NCBI GenBank assembly: GCA_902762955.1
Contig: CACWQH010000003.1
Coordinates: 17,990 to 81,989 of the forward strand
Source: an uncultured Lachnospiraceae bacterium
Lineage (GTDB): Bacteria > Bacillota > Clostridia > Lachnospirales > Lachnospiraceae
DNA: 64,000 nucleotides
Reading direction: 5' to 3'
In this document: positions 48,825 to 64,000 of the stretch, one piece after another
Layout of the letters: each line of letters begins with the position of its first letter
Position numbering within the stretch: the first letter of the stretch is position 1
Made by a program: the position numbers and the translations under genes
Notes under the pieces: generated by a model
Told to the model about the DNA's origin: nothing
The model's database searches: none
Seen by the model: only the letters and a program-made list of their open reading frames with translations

Positions 48825-48908
48825 TGATTATATGTATATGTAAGCTTTTAGCTAATATATAAATGAACTTTGTTAATGCTGTGGAACTAATTGTATAGGA
48901 GTTTGTTT

Positions 48909-50720
48909 ATGAATTACAGTAAGGAACAGGAGCATGCGATAAAGCATGTAGATGGGCCGTGTATGGTTATTGCAGGGCCGGGTTCCGGAAAGACAGCAGT
49001 CATTACAGGTAGAATAAAGTATTTAATAGAATCTGCGGGTGTTTCGCCCGCAGATATTCTTGTTATAACCTTTACCAGAGCGGCAGCCCGCGAGATGGAA
49101 CAAAGGTTTAAGGCTATGACAAGAGGGAAAAACCATCAGGTAAGATTCGGTACATTTCATTCGATTTATTTTTGGATTATTAAGACAGCATACAATCTAA
49201 ACAATTCCAGTGTGATTTCAAATGATGAAAAGAGAAAGTTAATAGATAAAATTCTTTTGGGGATGTCTCTTGAATATGAAAATAAAGAGGATATCATATC
49301 AAGTATTATATCGCAGATAGGGCTCGTTAAATGTGATATGATAGACATAGAAAACTATTACAGCAAGGATATGCCCGAGGATGAATTCAGGGAGATTTAT
49401 AAGAGATTTAATCATGAGATGAAACGGTTCGGCAAAATTGATTTTGACGATATGATGGTTATGTGCTATGAGCTTTTAAATAAAAGACCGGATATACTTA
49501 AACGCTGCAGGGAAATATTTAAGTATATAATGATTGATGAATTTCAGGACAGTAATAAAATTCAATATGAGATATTTAAGCTTTTGGCAAAGCCTTTGGA
49601 TAATGTATTTGTAGTCGGCGATGATGACCAGTCGGTTTACGGCTTTCGCGGAGCGAGACCTGAGATAATGTTTTTGTTTGAGAAGGATTTTGAAAACACC
49701 AGGAAATATTATCTGGTAGAAAACTACAGATGCGACAGAGTGATTACGAAGGTATCGTCCAAGCTTATTGCAGACAATAAAAAGAGATTTGATAAGAAGC
49801 TGGTTTCAAAAAATGCCGCAGAGGGCAAGTTTGAAATAATTGAAACAGAAGATACCAATTTTGAAAATGATGCGATTATTTCAAGTGTCAGAGAGCATTT
49901 TGCTGCAGGCATACCTTACGAAGAACAGGCTGTGCTTTATCGAACCAATATCGAGCCAAGGCGTCTTGTATATAAGCTTAATCAGTTTAACATACCTTAT
50001 ACCATAAGCGATGCATTGCCCAATATATTTGAGCATTTTGTCGTAAAGGGTGTGCTTAATTATATGCGCTTTGCCATGGGTGACAGAAGTAGGTCGGTTT
50101 TCCTGCAGATAATGAATAAGCCAAGCAGATATATAAGCAGAAATCTTCTGCTTGAGGAGGAGATTGATTTTAATGCTCTAAGATATCGTGCAAGGGATAA
50201 AGAATACGTGGTGGAAAGAATCGACAAGCTTATCGCTGACTTAAGACTTATAAGCAAGATGCGTCCATATCCGGCGCTTAATTTTATAAGAAATGCAGTC
50301 GGCTTTGATGATTACATAAAGGACTACGCCGAGTTCAGACAGCTTGATAAAGATGAACTGTATGAGGTCTTGGATGAATTTGCAAGCATGATAGTTGACT
50401 TTAAAAGCTACGGCGAGCTTTTTGAATTTATTGAAGAATATTCAGAGGTCTTAAAGAAGCAGCAGATAGAGGAAAAGGACAAGAAAGGTCTTCGCCTTAT
50501 GACCATGCACAGTTCAAAAGGACTTGAGTTTGACTGTGTATACATCATGAATGTAGTCGATGGCTGTATACCTTACAGAAAGGCAAAAACCTCAGGTAAG
50601 ATAGAGGAGGAGCGCCGTATGCTATATGTTGCCATGACACGTGCCCGCCACGAGCTTTATATATATACCCCAAAAGAAGTATCAGGAAAGCCTAAGAATA
50701 AGAGCTCTTTTCTGGAGTGA
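48909..50720 (+). CDS. UvrD/PcrA-family ATP-dependent DNA helicase
   Basis: It has 603 residues from ATG 48909 (RBS TAGGAG), shorter than the ~730 of PcrA. Superfamily 1A motifs are in order: Q-motif QEHAI, Walker A AGPGSGKT (22-29), motif II IDEFQDSN, motif III GDDDQSVYGFRGA, motif IV-type ENYRCDR, motif V TMHSSKGLEF, and motif VI YVAMTRARHELYIY. The missing length is in the C-terminal tail. DNA repair or replication restart is expected. Likely transcribed on its own. Confidence 0.92.
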   Translation: MNYSKEQEHAIKHVDGPCMVIAGPGSGKTAVITGRIKYLIESAGVSPADILVITFTRAAAREMEQRFKAMTRGKNHQVRFGTFHSIYFWIIKTAYNLNNSSVISNDEKRKLIDKILLGMSLEYENKEDIISSIISQIGLVKCDMIDIENYYSKDMPEDEFREIYKRFNHEMKRFGKIDFDDMMVMCYELLNKRPDILKRCREIFKYIMIDEFQDSNKIQYEIFKLLAKPLDNVFVVGDDDQSVYGFRGARPEIMFLFEKDFENTRKYYLVENYRCDRVITKVSSKLIADNKKRFDKKLVSKNAAEGKFEIIETEDTNFENDAIISSVREHFAAGIPYEEQAVLYRTNIEPRRLVYKLNQFNIPYTISDALPNIFEHFVVKGVLNYMRFAMGDRSRSVFLQIMNKPSRYISRNLLLEEEIDFNALRYRARDKEYVVERIDKLIADLRLISKMRPYPALNFIRNAVGFDDYIKDYAEFRQLDKDELYEVLDEFASMIVDFKSYGELFEFIEEYSEVLKKQQIEEKDKKGLRLMTMHSSKGLEFDCVYIMNVVDGCIPYRKAKTSGKIEEERRMLYVAMTRARHELYIYTPKEVSGKPKNKSSFLE

Positions 50721-50766
50721 AACAATTCATATGACTTGTAGTTGCCGTAACTCATAAAAAAGTTAG

Positions 50767-51090
50767 AATTTACCTATAAGATGAGCAGTAACAGAGCTCT
50801 TATAGGTAATTTAAGTGACTTGACAGGCTGAAATTTTGAGAATTTACCTATAAGATGAGCAGTAACAGAGTTCTTATAGGTAATTTAAGCGATTTGACAG
50901 GCTGTATTTTTAAAAATTTACCTATAAGATGAGCAGTAACAGAGCTCTTATAGGTAATTTAAGCGATTTGTCATGCTGTAATTTCAAAAATTTACCTATA
51001 AGATAGTTGAAAAGTAGTATGCTTATAGGTAAAATAATAAGATGATTAGAATATAGAAGGTTTGTTTTACCTATAAAATAATTTGATTAT
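50767..51090 (+). repeat. 74-bp tandem array of hairpin-forming repeats
   Basis: Units begin at 50767, 50841, 50915 and 50989 (exact 74-bp period), with a degenerate fifth at 51064 that ends near the RBS of the next gene. Each of the first three holds TTACCTATAAGA, a 16-nt loop, and TCTTATAGGTAA. In unit 4 the loop is completely different but the 11-bp arms still match. Inter-hairpin sequence is also conserved (AAGYGAYTTG then RGCTG), so the spacers are not unique. The array fills most of the 385-nt gap 50721-51105. Confidence 0.95.
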
Positions 51091-51105
51091 CACAGGGAGA
51101 TAGCT

Positions 51106-52530
51106 ATGCTGTTTTCAAGCATTACATTTTTGTTTGCGTTTTTACCTGCGGTTTTGCTGGTATATTATATAAGCCCAAGGGCAATTAAAAATTTCGTGCT
51201 TATGTTTTTTTCTCTTATTTTTTATGCATGGGGAGAGCCTAAGTACGTTTTTGTGATGCTTGCATCTATAATAGTCGGTTATGTTATGGGACTTTTGACC
51301 GATTATTATATGAAAAAGGAAAAGATAAAAGCGGCAAGGTGGATGGTTGCGCTTGCGGTTATTATCAATCTCGGTATATTGTTTTTCTTTAAGTATATGG
51401 GCTTTTTTACGGAAAATATCAATAAGATTCCGCATATTCATATAAAGGCGTTAGAGCTTTCACTACCTTTGGGTATATCCTTTTATACCTTCCAGATTCT
51501 TACTTATTCGGTAGATGTATATAGACAGACTGCAAAGCCACAGAAAAATATAATAAATCTTGCAACCTATATCACACTTTTTCCGCAGCTTATCGCAGGA
51601 CCGATAGTAAGATATGAAACTGTAGCAAAGCAGCTTGAAGAACGTAAGGAAAACATAGACGATTTTGGCGAGGGTGTAAGAAGATTTGTTACCGGACTTG
51701 GTAAAAAGGTGCTTATAGCCAATATGGCAGGAGAGATATTTGATACGCTTTCCAAGCTTCCAAATGAGCAAAATACGGTTTTATTATCGTGGATTTGTTC
51801 GGTGGCATTTACGCTACAGATATATTTTGATTTTTCGGGATATTCGGATATGGCGATAGGACTTGGACGGATGTTTGGCTTTAGATTTCTTGAAAACTTT
51901 GATTATCCTTATATATCAAAGAGCCTTACGGAGTTTTGGAGAAGATGGCATATATCTCTTTCGTCATGGTTTAAAGATTATGTTTATATACCTCTAGGGG
52001 GTAACAGGAAGGGTAAGGCAAAGACCTACAGAAATCTTTTTGTAGTATGGTTTTTGACAGGCTTCTGGCATGGTGCATCATGGAACTTTATCATATGGGG
52101 GCTTTATTACTTTGTGCTTCTTATGATTGAAAAAACATGGCTTTTAAAGAAACTGGAAAAAGCACCTAAGTTCTTGTCACATTTATATGCTCTTTTCTTT
52201 ATCAATTTTGGCTGGGTAATATTTGCTTATGATAAGTGGGGAGCTTTAAAATCTGCAGTAAAAAATATGTTTGGCTTTGGAGGACTGACTGTTTTTAACA
52301 GATATACAGCATATATGCTTTTATCATATGGATTGTTCCTGATCATTGCTTTTGTAGCGGCGACACCTTATCCGAGGTTGCTTGCAGGAAAGTTTATAAC
52401 AAAGATTGAAGATAAAAAGAGTTCCATAGCAGGAGTAGTTGAAGGAGTATTCATTATATGTGTTATGCTTTTGTCGACGGCATTTCTTGCAAGTGAAGCA
52501 TTTAATCCGTTTTTATATTTCAGGTTTTAA
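51106..52530 (+). CDS. MBOAT-family O-acyltransferase (AlgI-like)
   Basis: Membrane-bound acyltransferase of the AlgI/PatA/DltB type that moves acyl groups to a surface polysaccharide. It has 474 residues and about 10 to 11 membrane helices. Conserved blocks are YPYISKSLTEFWRRWHISLS, VYIPLGGNR and GFWHGASWNF, where H322 is the catalytic histidine. The RBS GGGAGA lies just after the hairpin array. It pairs with the DHHW protein downstream, as algI does with algJ/algX. Confidence 0.94.
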   Translation: MLFSSITFLFAFLPAVLLVYYISPRAIKNFVLMFFSLIFYAWGEPKYVFVMLASIIVGYVMGLLTDYYMKKEKIKAARWMVALAVIINLGILFFFKYMGFFTENINKIPHIHIKALELSLPLGISFYTFQILTYSVDVYRQTAKPQKNIINLATYITLFPQLIAGPIVRYETVAKQLEERKENIDDFGEGVRRFVTGLGKKVLIANMAGEIFDTLSKLPNEQNTVLLSWICSVAFTLQIYFDFSGYSDMAIGLGRMFGFRFLENFDYPYISKSLTEFWRRWHISLSSWFKDYVYIPLGGNRKGKAKTYRNLFVVWFLTGFWHGASWNFIIWGLYYFVLLMIEKTWLLKKLEKAPKFLSHLYALFFINFGWVIFAYDKWGALKSAVKNMFGFGGLTVFNRYTAYMLLSYGLFLIIAFVAATPYPRLLAGKFITKIEDKKSSIAGVVEGVFIICVMLLSTAFLASEAFNPFLYFRF

Positions 52531-52606
52531 ATTATAATTATTGGGTTTTAAGTTATAAGTTACAGGTTTAAAAAAATTATTATTGGGTTTTAAATTATAA
52601 GTTTTA
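52522..52606 (+). repeat. Imperfect AT-rich direct repeats between algI-like and DHHW genes
   Basis: The motif GGTTTTAARTTATAA occurs three times, starting near 52523, 52544 and 52586, in two instances preceded by ATTATT. The first copy includes the end of the acyltransferase gene. The rest of the gap to 52675 is AT-rich and shows nothing else. Confidence 0.6.
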
Positions 52607-59699: not shown

Positions 59700-59746
59700 A
59701 TGCGGCTTAGGGGTTACATACTTTGTCATATATAAAGGAGGAAAAA

Positions 59747-61822
59747 ATGTTTTGTAATGAGTGTGGAGCAAATCTTCCTGAGGGGAGTAAATTTTGTAAT
59801 GTATGCGGAGCAAAGATTTTAGTTCCGAAGATGAGTGAAGAGAATGTGCAGATGGACTATGGTCAGCAGAATCAAAATAATGTACAGCCTGATTATGGTC
59901 AGCAGAATCAAAATAATGCACAGCCGGATTACGGTCAGCAGAATCAAAATAATGCACAGCCGGATTACGGTCAGCAGAATCAAAATAATGTACAGCCTGA
60001 TTATGGTCAGCAGAATCAAAATAATGCGCAGCCGGACTATGGTCAGCAGAATCAAATAAATGCTCAACCCGACTATGCGAAGCAGTATCAGCAAAATAAT
60101 ATACAAGAATCACAACCTTCAATTAATGATAGCAGTAAAATTAAAAACACTTCAAAAAAGAAGCTTCCAACCTGGGCTAAGATTTGGATTGTTGTATGTG
60201 TGCTTGCTGTTATAGGTATAGGTACATTTTTAACCATACATTTTATAAAAGGAAAAAAGAACAGTGGTTCGTATGTTACCATAAATGGTACACGTTGCGA
60301 TATAACCTATGAGGACGGACTATCTAATTTAAGTAAGATTAATGATGGAGTTATATTTAAATCAAATGATATTAATCCTAAATATGATTATTATAAGGAT
60401 GGAGAGCTCGTGTCTTCTTCACAGGGAGAAGGAGATAAACAACCGGATGTAGTGGTTACAAGACCGATGTTTAATTTGGGATTTGATTTGGTTGAACATA
60501 ATGGCGCAATCAGTATATTTTTTTATAAAAATGCTAATTTTAAATTTGCTGATGGTACAAGTGCTAAATCTTCACCTGCTGAGCTTGAAAAAGCAGGCTA
60601 TTATTGTGATGGTTCAAGTTGCTACAGCAAGCTTTATGATAAAAACGGAGAGATATCTCTTGATGAAGTAGAGTCGGATTATGACAAGTTTTTACAGGAT
60701 GGTTTTGAAGGGCTCGATTATCCGGCACGAGTAGCATTTCCGGATAGGTTTTATTCGGGCTTTTTTAAAGGAACTAAGGAGGAAAACAAGCAGGCTTTAA
60801 AAGAATTATATAACGATACACCTTTAAAAGCCGGAAATTTTGATGATTTGGTAATGTCAAGACTTTTGCTTGCAAAAGAAATCAGCAAGCTTACAGGTAT
60901 GAATAAAGATGGTGAATATGTAGGCAGTACAAATGATTTTCTTGTAAAGGTTGACTATTGGTATTCAAATAATGGTTATATAAATACAACCATTACTATA
61001 TATGGATCAAGGGAATTGCTGAATGGTTATATGACCAAGTGGGGATTACCCGATTCTTTGCTTTTCAAAGTGGAGAGCAGGATGACAACTGAGGATTATG
61101 ATCAGATTCCTGAAGCAACAGATGGTGTTGAAGAACCTAATCAGGAGATAGATGATGGCGCTGATATCTTTGATGCAGATGATGTACCGAAAGAACCATG
61201 GGAGATATCCGTATCGGATATACCCGAGTATGATGCGTTAGTACATTTTTTTGATTGTTTGGATATATACAGAGATGGTAATTATGAACGTTATTATGAC
61301 AGCGAGGAAGTATTAAGCGGAGATTTTGATATATTGTATTATCTTATTTCTCCTTTTATCTGCGTTGACAGACAAGGCTTATATCCTTTATATGACATTG
61401 AAACTGTATGGGGTGAAGTGGAAGATCCTCGTGGATATATATCAGATGAAAATTCACCATGGCACAATATGGGATATAATCATGTATCATTAGAAGGACT
61501 TAAGTGGGTTGCTGTCAATATTTTTAATGTAAAAGAAGTGGATTATGATATTCTTTTAAATAAACTTCTGGATGAAAATGAGAGTTATATAGAAAATGGA
61601 CGTTTGTATTTTTCGATTGGCGGAATAGGCTGGATGGGAGACTTGTTTGAAATAGAAACAGTTAAAACGGATGGTACATTTTATTATATAACATATAATA
61701 AAGTTCCGGATCCTGAGTACGGTTTTGAAGAAGAAATAGAAACATACGAAGCCAAGATGCAACTAAAAAATATAGACGGCGTAAATTACTGGTCTATGTA
61801 TTATAATCATAAGGCAGAATAA
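59747..61822 (+). CDS. Zinc-ribbon membrane protein with 12-residue repeats
   Basis: It has 691 residues from ATG 59747 (RBS AAAGGAGG). The ribbon (FCNECG, KFCNVCG) occupies residues 1-25. Residues 37-108 are six copies of DYGQQNQNNxQP, with a partial seventh. A membrane helix lies at about 144-166. The ~520-residue outside part holds at least two alpha/beta segments (around 195-400 and 475-691) that I do not recognise. The ribbon and repeats would be cytoplasmic if the single helix is oriented N-in. Confidence 0.82.
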   Translation: MFCNECGANLPEGSKFCNVCGAKILVPKMSEENVQMDYGQQNQNNVQPDYGQQNQNNAQPDYGQQNQNNAQPDYGQQNQNNVQPDYGQQNQNNAQPDYGQQNQINAQPDYAKQYQQNNIQESQPSINDSSKIKNTSKKKLPTWAKIWIVVCVLAVIGIGTFLTIHFIKGKKNSGSYVTINGTRCDITYEDGLSNLSKINDGVIFKSNDINPKYDYYKDGELVSSSQGEGDKQPDVVVTRPMFNLGFDLVEHNGAISIFFYKNANFKFADGTSAKSSPAELEKAGYYCDGSSCYSKLYDKNGEISLDEVESDYDKFLQDGFEGLDYPARVAFPDRFYSGFFKGTKEENKQALKELYNDTPLKAGNFDDLVMSRLLLAKEISKLTGMNKDGEYVGSTNDFLVKVDYWYSNNGYINTTITIYGSRELLNGYMTKWGLPDSLLFKVESRMTTEDYDQIPEATDGVEEPNQEIDDGADIFDADDVPKEPWEISVSDIPEYDALVHFFDCLDIYRDGNYERYYDSEEVLSGDFDILYYLISPFICVDRQGLYPLYDIETVWGEVEDPRGYISDENSPWHNMGYNHVSLEGLKWVAVNIFNVKEVDYDILLNKLLDENESYIENGRLYFSIGGIGWMGDLFEIETVKTDGTFYYITYNKVPDPEYGFEEEIETYEAKMQLKNIDGVNYWSMYYNHKAE
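59855..60085 (+). repeat. 36-bp in-frame minisatellite
   Basis: Six units start at 59855, 59891, 59927, 59963, 59999 and 60035, with a partial seventh at 60071. Most differences are silent or change one residue (Val or Ala before Gln-Pro). Units 1 to 5 are nearly identical at the DNA level, which points to recent expansion. Confidence 0.93.
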
Positions 61823-61848: not shown

Positions 61849-63027
61849 ATGGATCAGGGATTAATTATAATTATTATTGCAGTTGTCTTTGTTTTTGGAA
61901 TATATTTTCTTAGATATATTTTGAAAAATTTAATGAATAAAGGTTTTGATGCCATAGAAAATTCGGCACGAAAAAATAAAAATATAAAGAAAGGTCCGGA
62001 GATTATACGTCTTGCAGATATGTATCCTGACCTTGCTGCAAGACATTATCAGGCAGGTACAGCTTATGAAATAAATCCAATACTTTTAACTTCGGAAGGT
62101 GTAAACCTACAGCCTGCCGCAAATCCTTATATACAGTCTGATATGTATGAACAGCAGGGAATAACCGCAGAACAGCCCGGTGCAAATCCTTATGTACAGC
62201 CAAATGCCGGTATTCAGAGTAATCCATATATGGCATCGGGTCCATATATGCAGGGAAATCCATATATGGCAGCGGGACCGTACGTTCAAGCTAATCCTTA
62301 TATGGCAGCAGGACCGTACGTTCAGGGCAATCCGTACCTTGATCCTTCCGTACAGGAAGAGTATAAGACTATGAAAAGAGAAAGACGTACAAAACGTCTG
62401 AAAGTAGCTGCGAAAATTTTTACAATACTCGGAATACTTATAAATATTATACCGTTTATCGGATTTGTTTTTATGGTGTCGCCAAGATACAGAGATGATA
62501 CTGATGATTTCAATGGCATTTATGAAAATGGTATGTTTAAAATTGTTTTGATTTTGATAGGTGTTTCTCTTGCGGCATATATAGTGCTCTTAATTTCAAA
62601 ACGTATCCTTTATACCGCTTTTTATCCTGTATTTACTGTATTGCTGAGTGTACTGTTCTTAATTATAACAAATAATTTTGTTTCTGCTTATAGAGAAGAT
62701 AATTTAAAAAGATTTGGATATGAGGGTGTATCGGGATATATAAAGCGTGCGCAGGATGCATGTGTAATATTGGTTGTACTTTCAATATTGATATTTATAT
62801 GTATGTTGTTATATAATATCAAAGGCTTTAAATGGGTATTGTGGCTTAACCTTTTATTTGGAGCAGGAGCAGTACTTTTCGGAGCTATTGCTATAGGTCA
62901 GATAAGCAATATTGCCGATGGTATGTTCTATATGGCTGGCAATTACTTTGGTTACAGTCTTTTAGTACTTTTATATGCATTTGCGTATAAAGAAAATAAT
63001 AAACCTTTGATAAATGGCAGGGCATGA
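61849..63027 (+). CDS. Membrane protein with Pro/Tyr/Ala-rich repeat linker
   Basis: It has 392 residues. An N-terminal helix (about 3-25) is followed by a basic stretch, and residues about 80-165 form a linker with NPYMAAGPYVQ-type repeats. The C-terminal half has about six membrane helices (between 185 and 385). RBS AAAAGGAG. No enzyme motif. The repeat-bearing linker parallels those of its neighbours. Confidence 0.78.
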   Translation: MDQGLIIIIIAVVFVFGIYFLRYILKNLMNKGFDAIENSARKNKNIKKGPEIIRLADMYPDLAARHYQAGTAYEINPILLTSEGVNLQPAANPYIQSDMYEQQGITAEQPGANPYVQPNAGIQSNPYMASGPYMQGNPYMAAGPYVQANPYMAAGPYVQGNPYLDPSVQEEYKTMKRERRTKRLKVAAKIFTILGILINIIPFIGFVFMVSPRYRDDTDDFNGIYENGMFKIVLILIGVSLAAYIVLLISKRILYTAFYPVFTVLLSVLFLIITNNFVSAYREDNLKRFGYEGVSGYIKRAQDACVILVVLSILIFICMLLYNIKGFKWVLWLNLLFGAGAVLFGAIAIGQISNIADGMFYMAGNYFGYSLLVLLYAFAYKENNKPLINGRA

Positions 63028-63091: not shown

Positions 63092-64000
63092 ATGCAACAA
63101 TCTTATGCGGGAAAGGATATTGTTAAGTTTATAGCAGCAATTTTGTGGCTTGTTATGGGCATCATTTATTTAACATATGTATTTGATGCTTTTGATGCAA
63201 TGGGGGATCTTAAACCATATAAACAATATGGTGGCAGTTATTATAAACAGGCTATGGGACTTTATTGGATTATGGCTGCCATATATGCTTTGGCAGCGGT
63301 TATAACTATAGCAGCCATGATTTATATGATAAAAGAAGATGTAGATAAATTTGGTACTGTTATGTATTTATATGCAACAGGATATATCCTTGCGGTTGTA
63401 ATTATACTGGCTTATGCAAATTCTATATCTAACGGTTCGATTTTTGCATCATTTAAGTATCTTGATGTATCTGTGACAAAATATATTGTTGTTATAAGTC
63501 TGGCAGCCATACTTGTCGTGGCATCTATATATGCTGAGGGGATAAATTATAAAAAGGCAGGCAGAGGAGAACTGATCGCAGGAAAATCTTTTATACCGAT
63601 TGGAATATATTTATCAAGTTTTATCTGTATCCTGATTTTATCAAGTATGTTAAAGCATGATCTGGGTGATTATGTAGATGTTTCCGAGCTGTTTGGAAAT
63701 GCATTCAGATCACAAAGCGGTGGTGGAATAGCCCTTATAATAGGAATTCATGTAAGCTGTGGGTTATATATATTCTTAAGAGAAAAATATTTTGTCGGTG
63801 GTTCTTATGGCAGTATGGGTTATGGCGCCGGAGTCTATGGCATGTCACCTTACGGAAGAACAGGTTATGGAGCAGGTGCTATGGGTGTGCCTCCTTACGG
63901 TCAGACAGGATATGGTATGCCGCCTTATGGAGGAACAGGCTATGGAGCAGGTGCTCCGGGTATGGCTCCTTATGGTCAGACAGGATATGGTATACCACCT
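63092..64000 (+). CDS. Membrane protein with Gly/Tyr/Pro-rich tail (3' end outside window)
   Basis: An uninterrupted frame runs from ATG 63092 (RBS GGAAGGTAAAGGAA) to the window edge, 303 codons without a stop. It encodes six or so membrane helices (about 11-31, 55-78, 88-108, 124-143, 158-180, 204-223). The tail is repetitive and rich in Gly, Tyr and Pro (YGQTGYG, PPYGGTGYGAG). Not recognised. It continues the pattern of the preceding gene: hydrophobic domain plus Tyr/Pro repeats. Confidence 0.8.
   Translation, partial: MQQSYAGKDIVKFIAAILWLVMGIIYLTYVFDAFDAMGDLKPYKQYGGSYYKQAMGLYWIMAAIYALAAVITIAAMIYMIKEDVDKFGTVMYLYATGYILAVVIILAYANSISNGSIFASFKYLDVSVTKYIVVISLAAILVVASIYAEGINYKKAGRGELIAGKSFIPIGIYLSSFICILILSSMLKHDLGDYVDVSELFGNAFRSQSGGGIALIIGIHVSCGLYIFLREKYFVGGSYGSMGYGAGVYGMSPYGRTGYGAGAMGVPPYGQTGYGMPPYGGTGYGAGAPGMAPYGQTGYGIPP

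Follow-up and report, generated by a model that had tools for sequence, protein, structure and literature searches.

The closest described systems are the REP elements and BIMEs associated with RAYT (TnpA-REP) proteins. In the available portions of two papers (PMC8266576, PMC3733652), these are presented as dispersed intergenic inverted repeats, often clustered, whose enzyme and repeats co-evolve, RAYT being a dedicated DNA-processing enzyme encoded beside some REP copies. The available portion of the latter describes the REP form as a short stem-loop of 20-40 bp with a GTAG or CGTC tag, and describes the CGTC-tagged REPs as elements without a dedicated transposase that have 8-9 bp stems and 4-5 bp loops and rarely form clusters (PMC3733652).

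The arrays reported here resemble the REP/RAYT systems in being dispersed, intergenic, inverted and clustered, and in the presence of an enzyme gene beside the array (35/60 genes). However, the enzyme is predicted from a structural model to be PD-(D/E)XK-like rather than Y1/HuH, each unit consists of two half-sites set wide apart, the spacing from unit to unit is quantised by helical turns, and the motif differs between proteins of one family, with no common tag recognizable by eye. Like the CGTC-tagged REPs, they are palindromic dispersed repeats that lack a Y1 partner, but the units (about 35-43 bp overall) have arms of about 9-12 bp that flank loops of about 18 bp and are organized in regular arrays, which sets them apart from those elements as far as the available text describes them. 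A CRISPR-type array was also considered and rejected: the arms alternate in orientation, and loops and linkers are often alike between units and loci. Within the open literature, a scope that leaves out most subscription papers and all bioRxiv preprints, the matches listed included neither a description of such arrays nor a paper on PDC-S68, the candidate defence proteins that have a C-terminal domain homologous to that of the partner protein. The motif TTACCTATAA is present, as close direct repeats, in primers for a Sulfurospirillum two-component-system promoter in the available part of one report (PMC7755780); this occurrence has a different layout and is probably unrelated to the arrays.

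The window array and its dispersed relatives

The window, which is the whole 64,000-nucleotide stretch that was analysed, contains an array (C3) of four inverted pairs TTACCTATAAG-N18/19-CTTATAGGTAA with starts exactly 74 bp apart, followed by a lone half-site. The array and its neighbours are arranged as follows:

48891..50720, + strand: UvrD-type helicase gene, a neighbour outside the system, ending 49 bp 5' of the array
50770..50809, no strand assigned: unit 1, 40 bp, inverted pair TTACCTATAAG-N18-CTTATAGGTAA
50810..50843, no strand assigned: linker 1-2, 34 bp
50844..50883, no strand assigned: unit 2, 40 bp, loop of unit 1 with one change
50884..50917, no strand assigned: linker 2-3, 34 bp
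50918..50957, no strand assigned: unit 3, 40 bp, loop identical to that of unit 1
50958..50991, no strand assigned: linker 3-4, 34 bp
50992..51032, no strand assigned: unit 4, 41 bp, arms unchanged, different 19-bp loop
51067..51078, + strand: lone half-site TTACCTATAAAA, 75 bp after the start of unit 4
51106..52530, + strand: MBOAT (AlgI-like) gene, a neighbour outside the system and the first gene after the array

The end of the half-site and the MBOAT ATG (51106) are separated by 27 bp. Tandem Repeats Finder detected the array with period 74 and score 406. The arm TTACCTATAAGA, allowing one mismatch, occurs 9 times in the window, every time inside the array, while 100 shuffles of the window gave a mean of 0.64 and a maximum of 3 occurrences. 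A first-pass annotation of this DNA had described four 74-bp units plus a degenerate fifth; the four units and their exact 74-bp starts stand, while the fifth is a single half-site. The annotation was right in that unit 4 combines another loop, one base longer, with a perfect 11-bp stem; the stem is perfect in all four units. Unit 4 is nonetheless no exception, since loops vary between loci, and often within one array, across the whole family. Copy number, in which the annotation had considered change, does differ between relatives at the matching site, with four units plus the half-site here, five units in RGIG4472 (L072), and at least three in RUG14549 (L055), where the contig ends 88 bp past the array. 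Several other MAG contigs end in or near arrays (e.g., L225, L229, L233, L042 and L092), and therefore copy numbers may be lower bounds; the arrays may also explain some of the contig breaks in rumen MAGs.

The genome that includes the window (G000; 2.65 Mb in 81 contigs, 88.9% complete), hereafter the own genome, has five arrays with these arms, located on contigs C3 (the window, 4 units), C10 (4), C14 (4), C31 (5) and C32 (7). Their start-to-start spacing is 73-75 bp in five of five cases, and loops and linkers vary by locus. A 41-bp pattern with up to two mismatches matched 19 times in the own genome and once in each of 4 of 298 other genomes of the family; these four single matches are at chance level, because the reversed control had one match in each of 16 genomes. 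When the species-genome collection was scanned for exact matches to the pattern, 70 stretches were identified, 50 of them with two or more units. The latter are found, as labelled, in MAGs of Lachnospiraceae, other Clostridia, Fibrobacter or Fibrobacterales, several of which derive from rumen, omasum, abomasum or horse faeces. Viral contigs had two matches to the array pattern, both lone single units.

A nuclease-like partner family and its motifs

Comparison of the genes beside arrays picked out one protein family that is encoded directly at the array in distant lineages. The member in the own genome (G000:C32:27940-28776, about 280 aa) is encoded 72 bp after its own seven-unit array, and homologues that are 36-40% identical adjoin arrays in a Fibrobacter (at 22 bp) and in another Clostridiales genome (at 10 bp). 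ABC transporters, GGDEF proteins, Na+/H+ antiporters and EamA transporters also recur across array loci; this was taken as chance recurrence and they were rejected as partners.

Pfam and NCBIfam searches of the partner protein produced no match of acceptable score. Its C-terminal region of about 110 residues matches the C-terminus of PADLOC PDC-S68 (best model E 5e-22 to 6e-28 for 6 proteins), and these C-terminal domains are homologous, although the PDC-S68 models have about 1200-1270 positions versus about 280 aa. Residues E176, D207, E222 and K239, which we take to be catalytic, are invariant in an 11-sequence alignment in which 7 of the 11 rows are viral domain pieces; in a 26-sequence family alignment E176 and D207 are invariant, while conservation is at least 90% for E222 and below 90% for K239. 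In the AlphaFold model (mean pLDDT 81.5, pTM 0.51) the N-terminal part consists of a helix, a beta-hairpin and a long helix. The best Foldseek matches include the PD-(D/E)XK nucleases Bax1, DrdV, R2 endonuclease, Hjc and MunI with probabilities up to 1.00, the best E value being 0.0031 and the TM-scores of the listed matches being below 0.3 by query length. On this model the C-terminal domain looks PD-(D/E)XK-like; the predicted C-terminal fold would be shared with Bax1, DrdV and Hjc, but no match reaches E 0.001 and the N-terminal part is unmatched.

Homologues (E 1e-40 or better) were present in at least 115 of 397 sampled genomes of the host family, a count made with at most 6 candidates scored per genome, and in 43 of 150 genomes from the phylum of the Fibrobacter genome G302. 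Thus, about 29% of the sampled genomes in both groups carry homologues of a protein for which Pfam and NCBIfam gave no acceptable match. Among 398 genomes sampled from the host phylum, 25 matched at E 0.001, but only 5, all in the host family, did so over nearly the full length. Three plasmid records and three phage records matched at E 1e-5 or better, covering 39-55% and 33-78% of the query, respectively; the best phage match is a 4.2-kb record labelled 'Bacteriophage sp.' (78% of the query, 31% identity). In 9 viral contigs the match is limited to the nuclease domain and is located inside longer reading frames.

Of 60 homologue genes, 35 have a detected array of at least three inverted pairs no more than 750 bp away, upstream in 32 cases and downstream in 4, one gene having arrays on both sides. 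The de novo detector used 9-bp arms, each within one mismatch of a word, and gave 0 of 82 positives with tiles of the window (those of the array itself left out) and 0 of 142 with tiles of 20 control loci, all tiles being unmatched for intergenic status. The remaining 25 genes had no detected array, and some of their loci are cut by contig ends. Markov shuffles equalled the observed unit count for L224 and came near it for L131 and L122. By the motif rule L194, L196 and L206 have no gene, and L135 and L137 were omitted from one analysis step. Eight of ten further genes from the phylum of G302 have 4 or 5 units upstream, in a set that overlaps the earlier loci (L303 is L128, and L307 resembles L122).

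A search of 30 genomes with a 5-sequence profile showed the partner family in 15. It is present in 13 of the 14 genomes with TTACCTATAA arrays of at least two units versus 1 of the 15 lone-match genomes (the lone-match record L089 was left out), and also in the congener G180, which has its own motif. The exception among the 14, RUG10802 (G306), may be a binning error because one of its loci is almost identical to a RUG14549 locus. Eight of the 14 showed a gene accompanied by a cis array of the matching TTACCTATAA type; G300, G303, G306, G309, G310 and G311 had none among the matches that were given a locus. Overall, we consider it nearly certain that array and protein are associated. The near-identical loci L058 (RUG10802) and L087 (RUG14549) belong to MAGs labelled Ruminococcus flavefaciens and Lachnospiraceae, respectively, possibly as a consequence of a binning error or a recent transfer.

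Cis arrays at other homologues have different arm motifs, for example TTACTTGCTGA, CCGGTAACAAA, TGACGGATAA, AAATGGGGAT, ACGGAC and TACGGTT. In a tree of 60 proteins the motif agrees with phylogeny at short range (the GGTAACAA/GGCTAACA, ACGGAC and TACGGTT clades), and the TTACCTATAA-type proteins are scattered (polyphyletic). This repeated arrival at TTACCTATAA is partly a sampling effect, as these genomes were found through that motif.

The relation between motif and resident allele was followed in the own genome and its relatives. A second nuclease gene of the own genome (C26:66417-67196) is accompanied by a cis array of the GGTAACAAA motif. Exact GGTAACAAA pairs number 38 in the own genome, 5 in G300, 1 each in G299 and G303, and 0 in G180 and G305. 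Pairs of the GGCTAACA..TATAGCC type number 15 in G299, 14 in G300, 33 in G303, and 0 in the own genome, G180 and G305; the reversed controls of both patterns gave 0. At the place matching C26, the gene of G299 encodes a protein 60% identical (251 aa) within DNA that is 91.7% identical nearby (823 bp), the gene of G300 one that is 57% identical (271 aa; nearby DNA 93.3%, 504 bp), and G303 has a broken gene between flanks 79.6% and 95.6% identical. The motif at this place in the sister genomes is GGCTAACA..TATAGCC. Beside its GGCTAACA arrays G300 also carries GGTAACAA-type arrays, with 8 and 7 units of a GGTAACAAT-like variant (L042, L053), and the allele rule is therefore not clean. G180 has 59 ACGGAC pairs (control 5), including some on both sides of its nuclease gene, while six other genomes have 1-4 (controls 1-5).

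Motifs also differ at matching sites. The C73 site has a five-unit GGTAACAAA array in the own genome, GGCTAACA units in G303 and G300, and none in G299, and the bases around the right arm are closely similar between the own genome, G303 and G300. At the C27 site the own genome and G303 differ in motif within matching flanks. Comparison of such sites revealed no mechanism of insertion, and no target-site duplication was demonstrated at the C73, C51 and L281 sites, where one was looked for; G299 resembles a deletion at C73, and the overlap at the L281 site falls in low-complexity DNA. The C27 site (L228 on G000:C27, L258, L254) has a single ACGGACTAAAT..ATTTAGTCCGT unit in the own genome, G299 and G300. 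At L284 (G303:C8) several such units are seen by eye in a row, and G303 has a nuclease with a GTACGGACTA cis array; this row would fit array growth where the cognate gene is present. A second, longer dispersed repeat, composed of an AT-rich stretch followed by a CGAAGCGTGTCGATTATAGAG-like part, adjoins several GGTAACAAA arrays (L009, L226 and L227; G000:C10, C19 and C23).

Arm conservation and helical spacing

A comparison of 108 related unit pairs, with loops of equal length and 55-97% identity in the non-arm sequence, showed 27/2160 differences in arms, 532/2256 in loops and 859/3672 in linkers. The arms are thus about 18-fold less variable than loops or linkers, a figure that is somewhat overstated because units were found with at most 3 arm mismatches and because the pairs overlap, some coming from one genome and single units recurring in several pairs. 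Pairs between the window and L072 failed the filter. The strong constraint on the arms, together with the turnover of the loops, favours one of the options listed in the first-pass annotation, DNA or protein sites.

The 280 dyad-to-dyad spacings analysed are 51-54, 62-64, 71-76, 83-86, 94-96 and 106 bp, with none between. These classes, near 53, 63, 74, 84, 95 and 106 bp, correspond to whole turns of B-DNA, and the best-fit repeat in a scan from 9 to 13 bp is 10.54-10.60 bp. None of 5000 random sets drawn from 50-110 bp reached the observed fit in a test on 64 entries, in which each combination of motif spelling and spacing counted once and which are not all independent of one another. The set comprises spacings below 130 bp and, outside the TTACCTATAA set, arrays of at least three pairs; it treats spellings of one motif as separate families and counts a few arrays twice, as the cis loci L112-L115 repeat L041, L012, L079 and L075. 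Another 25 spacings, obtained later at genes from the phylum of G302, are near 63, 85, 95 and 105 bp, i.e., 6, 8, 9 or 10 turns, even where they are mixed inside single arrays (95-85-95, 63-95-85 and 63-64-106.5-63.5). Whole turns would place proteins on one face of duplex DNA, and the pattern is hard to explain otherwise.

These data bear on the possibility that the units act as an array of RNA hairpins, such as an attenuator, a small-RNA precursor or RNase sites. Four tested units fold as RNA at -13.2 to -14.8 kcal/mol (z -4.1 to -5.2). Among 192 distinct units, arm changes are two-sided in 7 cases (5 compensatory) while about 1.5 are expected by independence, and inner positions 11 and 13 pair above expectation (62% versus 46% and 43% versus 30%). 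This slight excess could reflect a symmetric dimer site or some pairing. However, the same units have 57 one-sided arm changes, 15 of them G-T wobble; the spacings step by turns of the DNA helix, and an Rfam search of 50600-51200 returned 4 matches, all far below gathering scores. Since arm changes are mostly one-sided, the units are very likely DNA half-sites rather than RNA stems, the RNA reading is highly improbable, and the earlier idea that pairing itself is selected finds little support in spite of the excess of two-sided changes.

Proposed mechanism and alternatives

The results suggest that gut and rumen bacteria have a two-part system that has gone unrecognised. Our preferred reading, which we regard as probable for the system as a whole, is that the array in the window is a trans, or orphan, copy: the protein cognate to its binding sites is encoded elsewhere in the genome, at G000:C32:27940-28776. 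As judged from the sequences, a family of proteins of about 280 aa is paired with arrays whose arm sequence varies by lineage and paralogue. The protein may bind the two arms of a unit in dimeric form, and dimers on consecutive units would line up on one helix face as a regular multimer. With less certainty, nuclease activity aimed by the arrays might drive their copying and homogenisation at intergenic sites, by which a genome's arrays would come to match its resident nuclease. By analogy, the working mode would be like that of REP with RAYT, except that the enzyme is unrelated and the sites are double-stranded and helically phased. This drive or conversion step is proposed on account of the site swaps at C73 and C27, the motif counts and the diverged alleles; independent insertion at favoured sites is possible as an alternative to conversion. 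We place the notion that the putative nuclease drives the spread or rewriting of arrays just short of an even chance. A fuller version, in which a PD-(D/E)XK-like enzyme and its chromosome-wide phased arrays co-evolve and a change in specificity is followed by the rewriting or replacement of arrays through array-to-array conversion, is offered more tentatively still; if true, bacteria would have in it a counterpart of concerted evolution or gene drive, with binding sites as the target.

A different explanation is that the arrays are operators through which a PD-(D/E)XK-fold protein mainly represses its own gene (cis) and neighbouring genes, here the MBOAT gene next to an orphan array. The upstream position of arrays at 32 of 60 nuclease genes, the 27 bp that separate the last half-site from the MBOAT start, and a helical phasing suitable for cooperative repressors would agree with it. 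However, the acidic nuclease residues are conserved. The TTACCTATAA arrays (n=37) comprise 16 between convergent genes, 17 in tandem gaps, the window array among them, and 4 between divergent genes, compared with 7, 104 and 28, respectively, for 139 other gaps of the same loci (Fisher p 6e-8 for the convergent excess; plain reading frames of at least 110 aa, orthologous arrays counted apart, L087 omitted). This preference argues against a general promoter role. In addition, comparison of the neighbours of the five own-genome arrays found no recurring gene. On the same grounds an attenuator of the acyltransferase gene, which the annotation had entertained, is unlikely as a general role, and we regard the operator reading as unlikely, though it is the strongest of the alternatives. 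Poorer prospects are given to a role in self-marking or defence, in which the nuclease would act on foreign DNA and the chromosomal arrays would hold it, titrate it or inform it about self. The match of the C-terminal domain to PDC-S68 and the different arm sequences of diverged alleles are compatible with this role, but it has no positive support beyond the shared domain, and the viral relatives match the nuclease domain only, apart from the short phage record covering 78% at 31% identity. The chance that a Y1 (RAYT) transposase mobilises the arrays as a REP/BIME family is practically negligible. Their dispersed, intergenic, inverted and clustered repeats, with an enzyme gene adjoining one copy, recall such a family, but the arm motif differs between nuclease alleles, and Y1_Tnp (PF01797) was not found in 10 of the 11 genomes searched, including the own genome, only G313 having one, while 5 of 14 control genomes matched. 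Membership fails because no such transposase was found in these 10 genomes and the units lack the REP form; for these genomes the reading counts as refuted unless their assemblies have missed a Y1 gene.

The arrays look like ordinary tandem repeats until they are compared. As a physical signature the DNA-turn rule is clear, and it opens the binding geometry to direct testing. Site and protein appear to diverge together, which provides a natural series for the evolution of DNA specificity, and the arrays are possibly new orthogonal DNA-binding arrays.

Other repeats are present in the window. Between the MBOAT and DHHW genes (52521-52603) there is an AT-rich 21/42-bp repeat without the array arms. 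A 36-bp repeat with 6.2 copies (59854-60077) encodes a repeated YGQQNQNN-type linker in the ORF 59723-61822 (+), and two frames of the other strand are likewise open across it; the protein has, by eye, a zinc-ribbon-like CxxC pattern at its start. Further repeats at 62213-62333 and 63836-64000 have periods of 36 and 75 bp and are possibly coding, as these periods are multiples of three.
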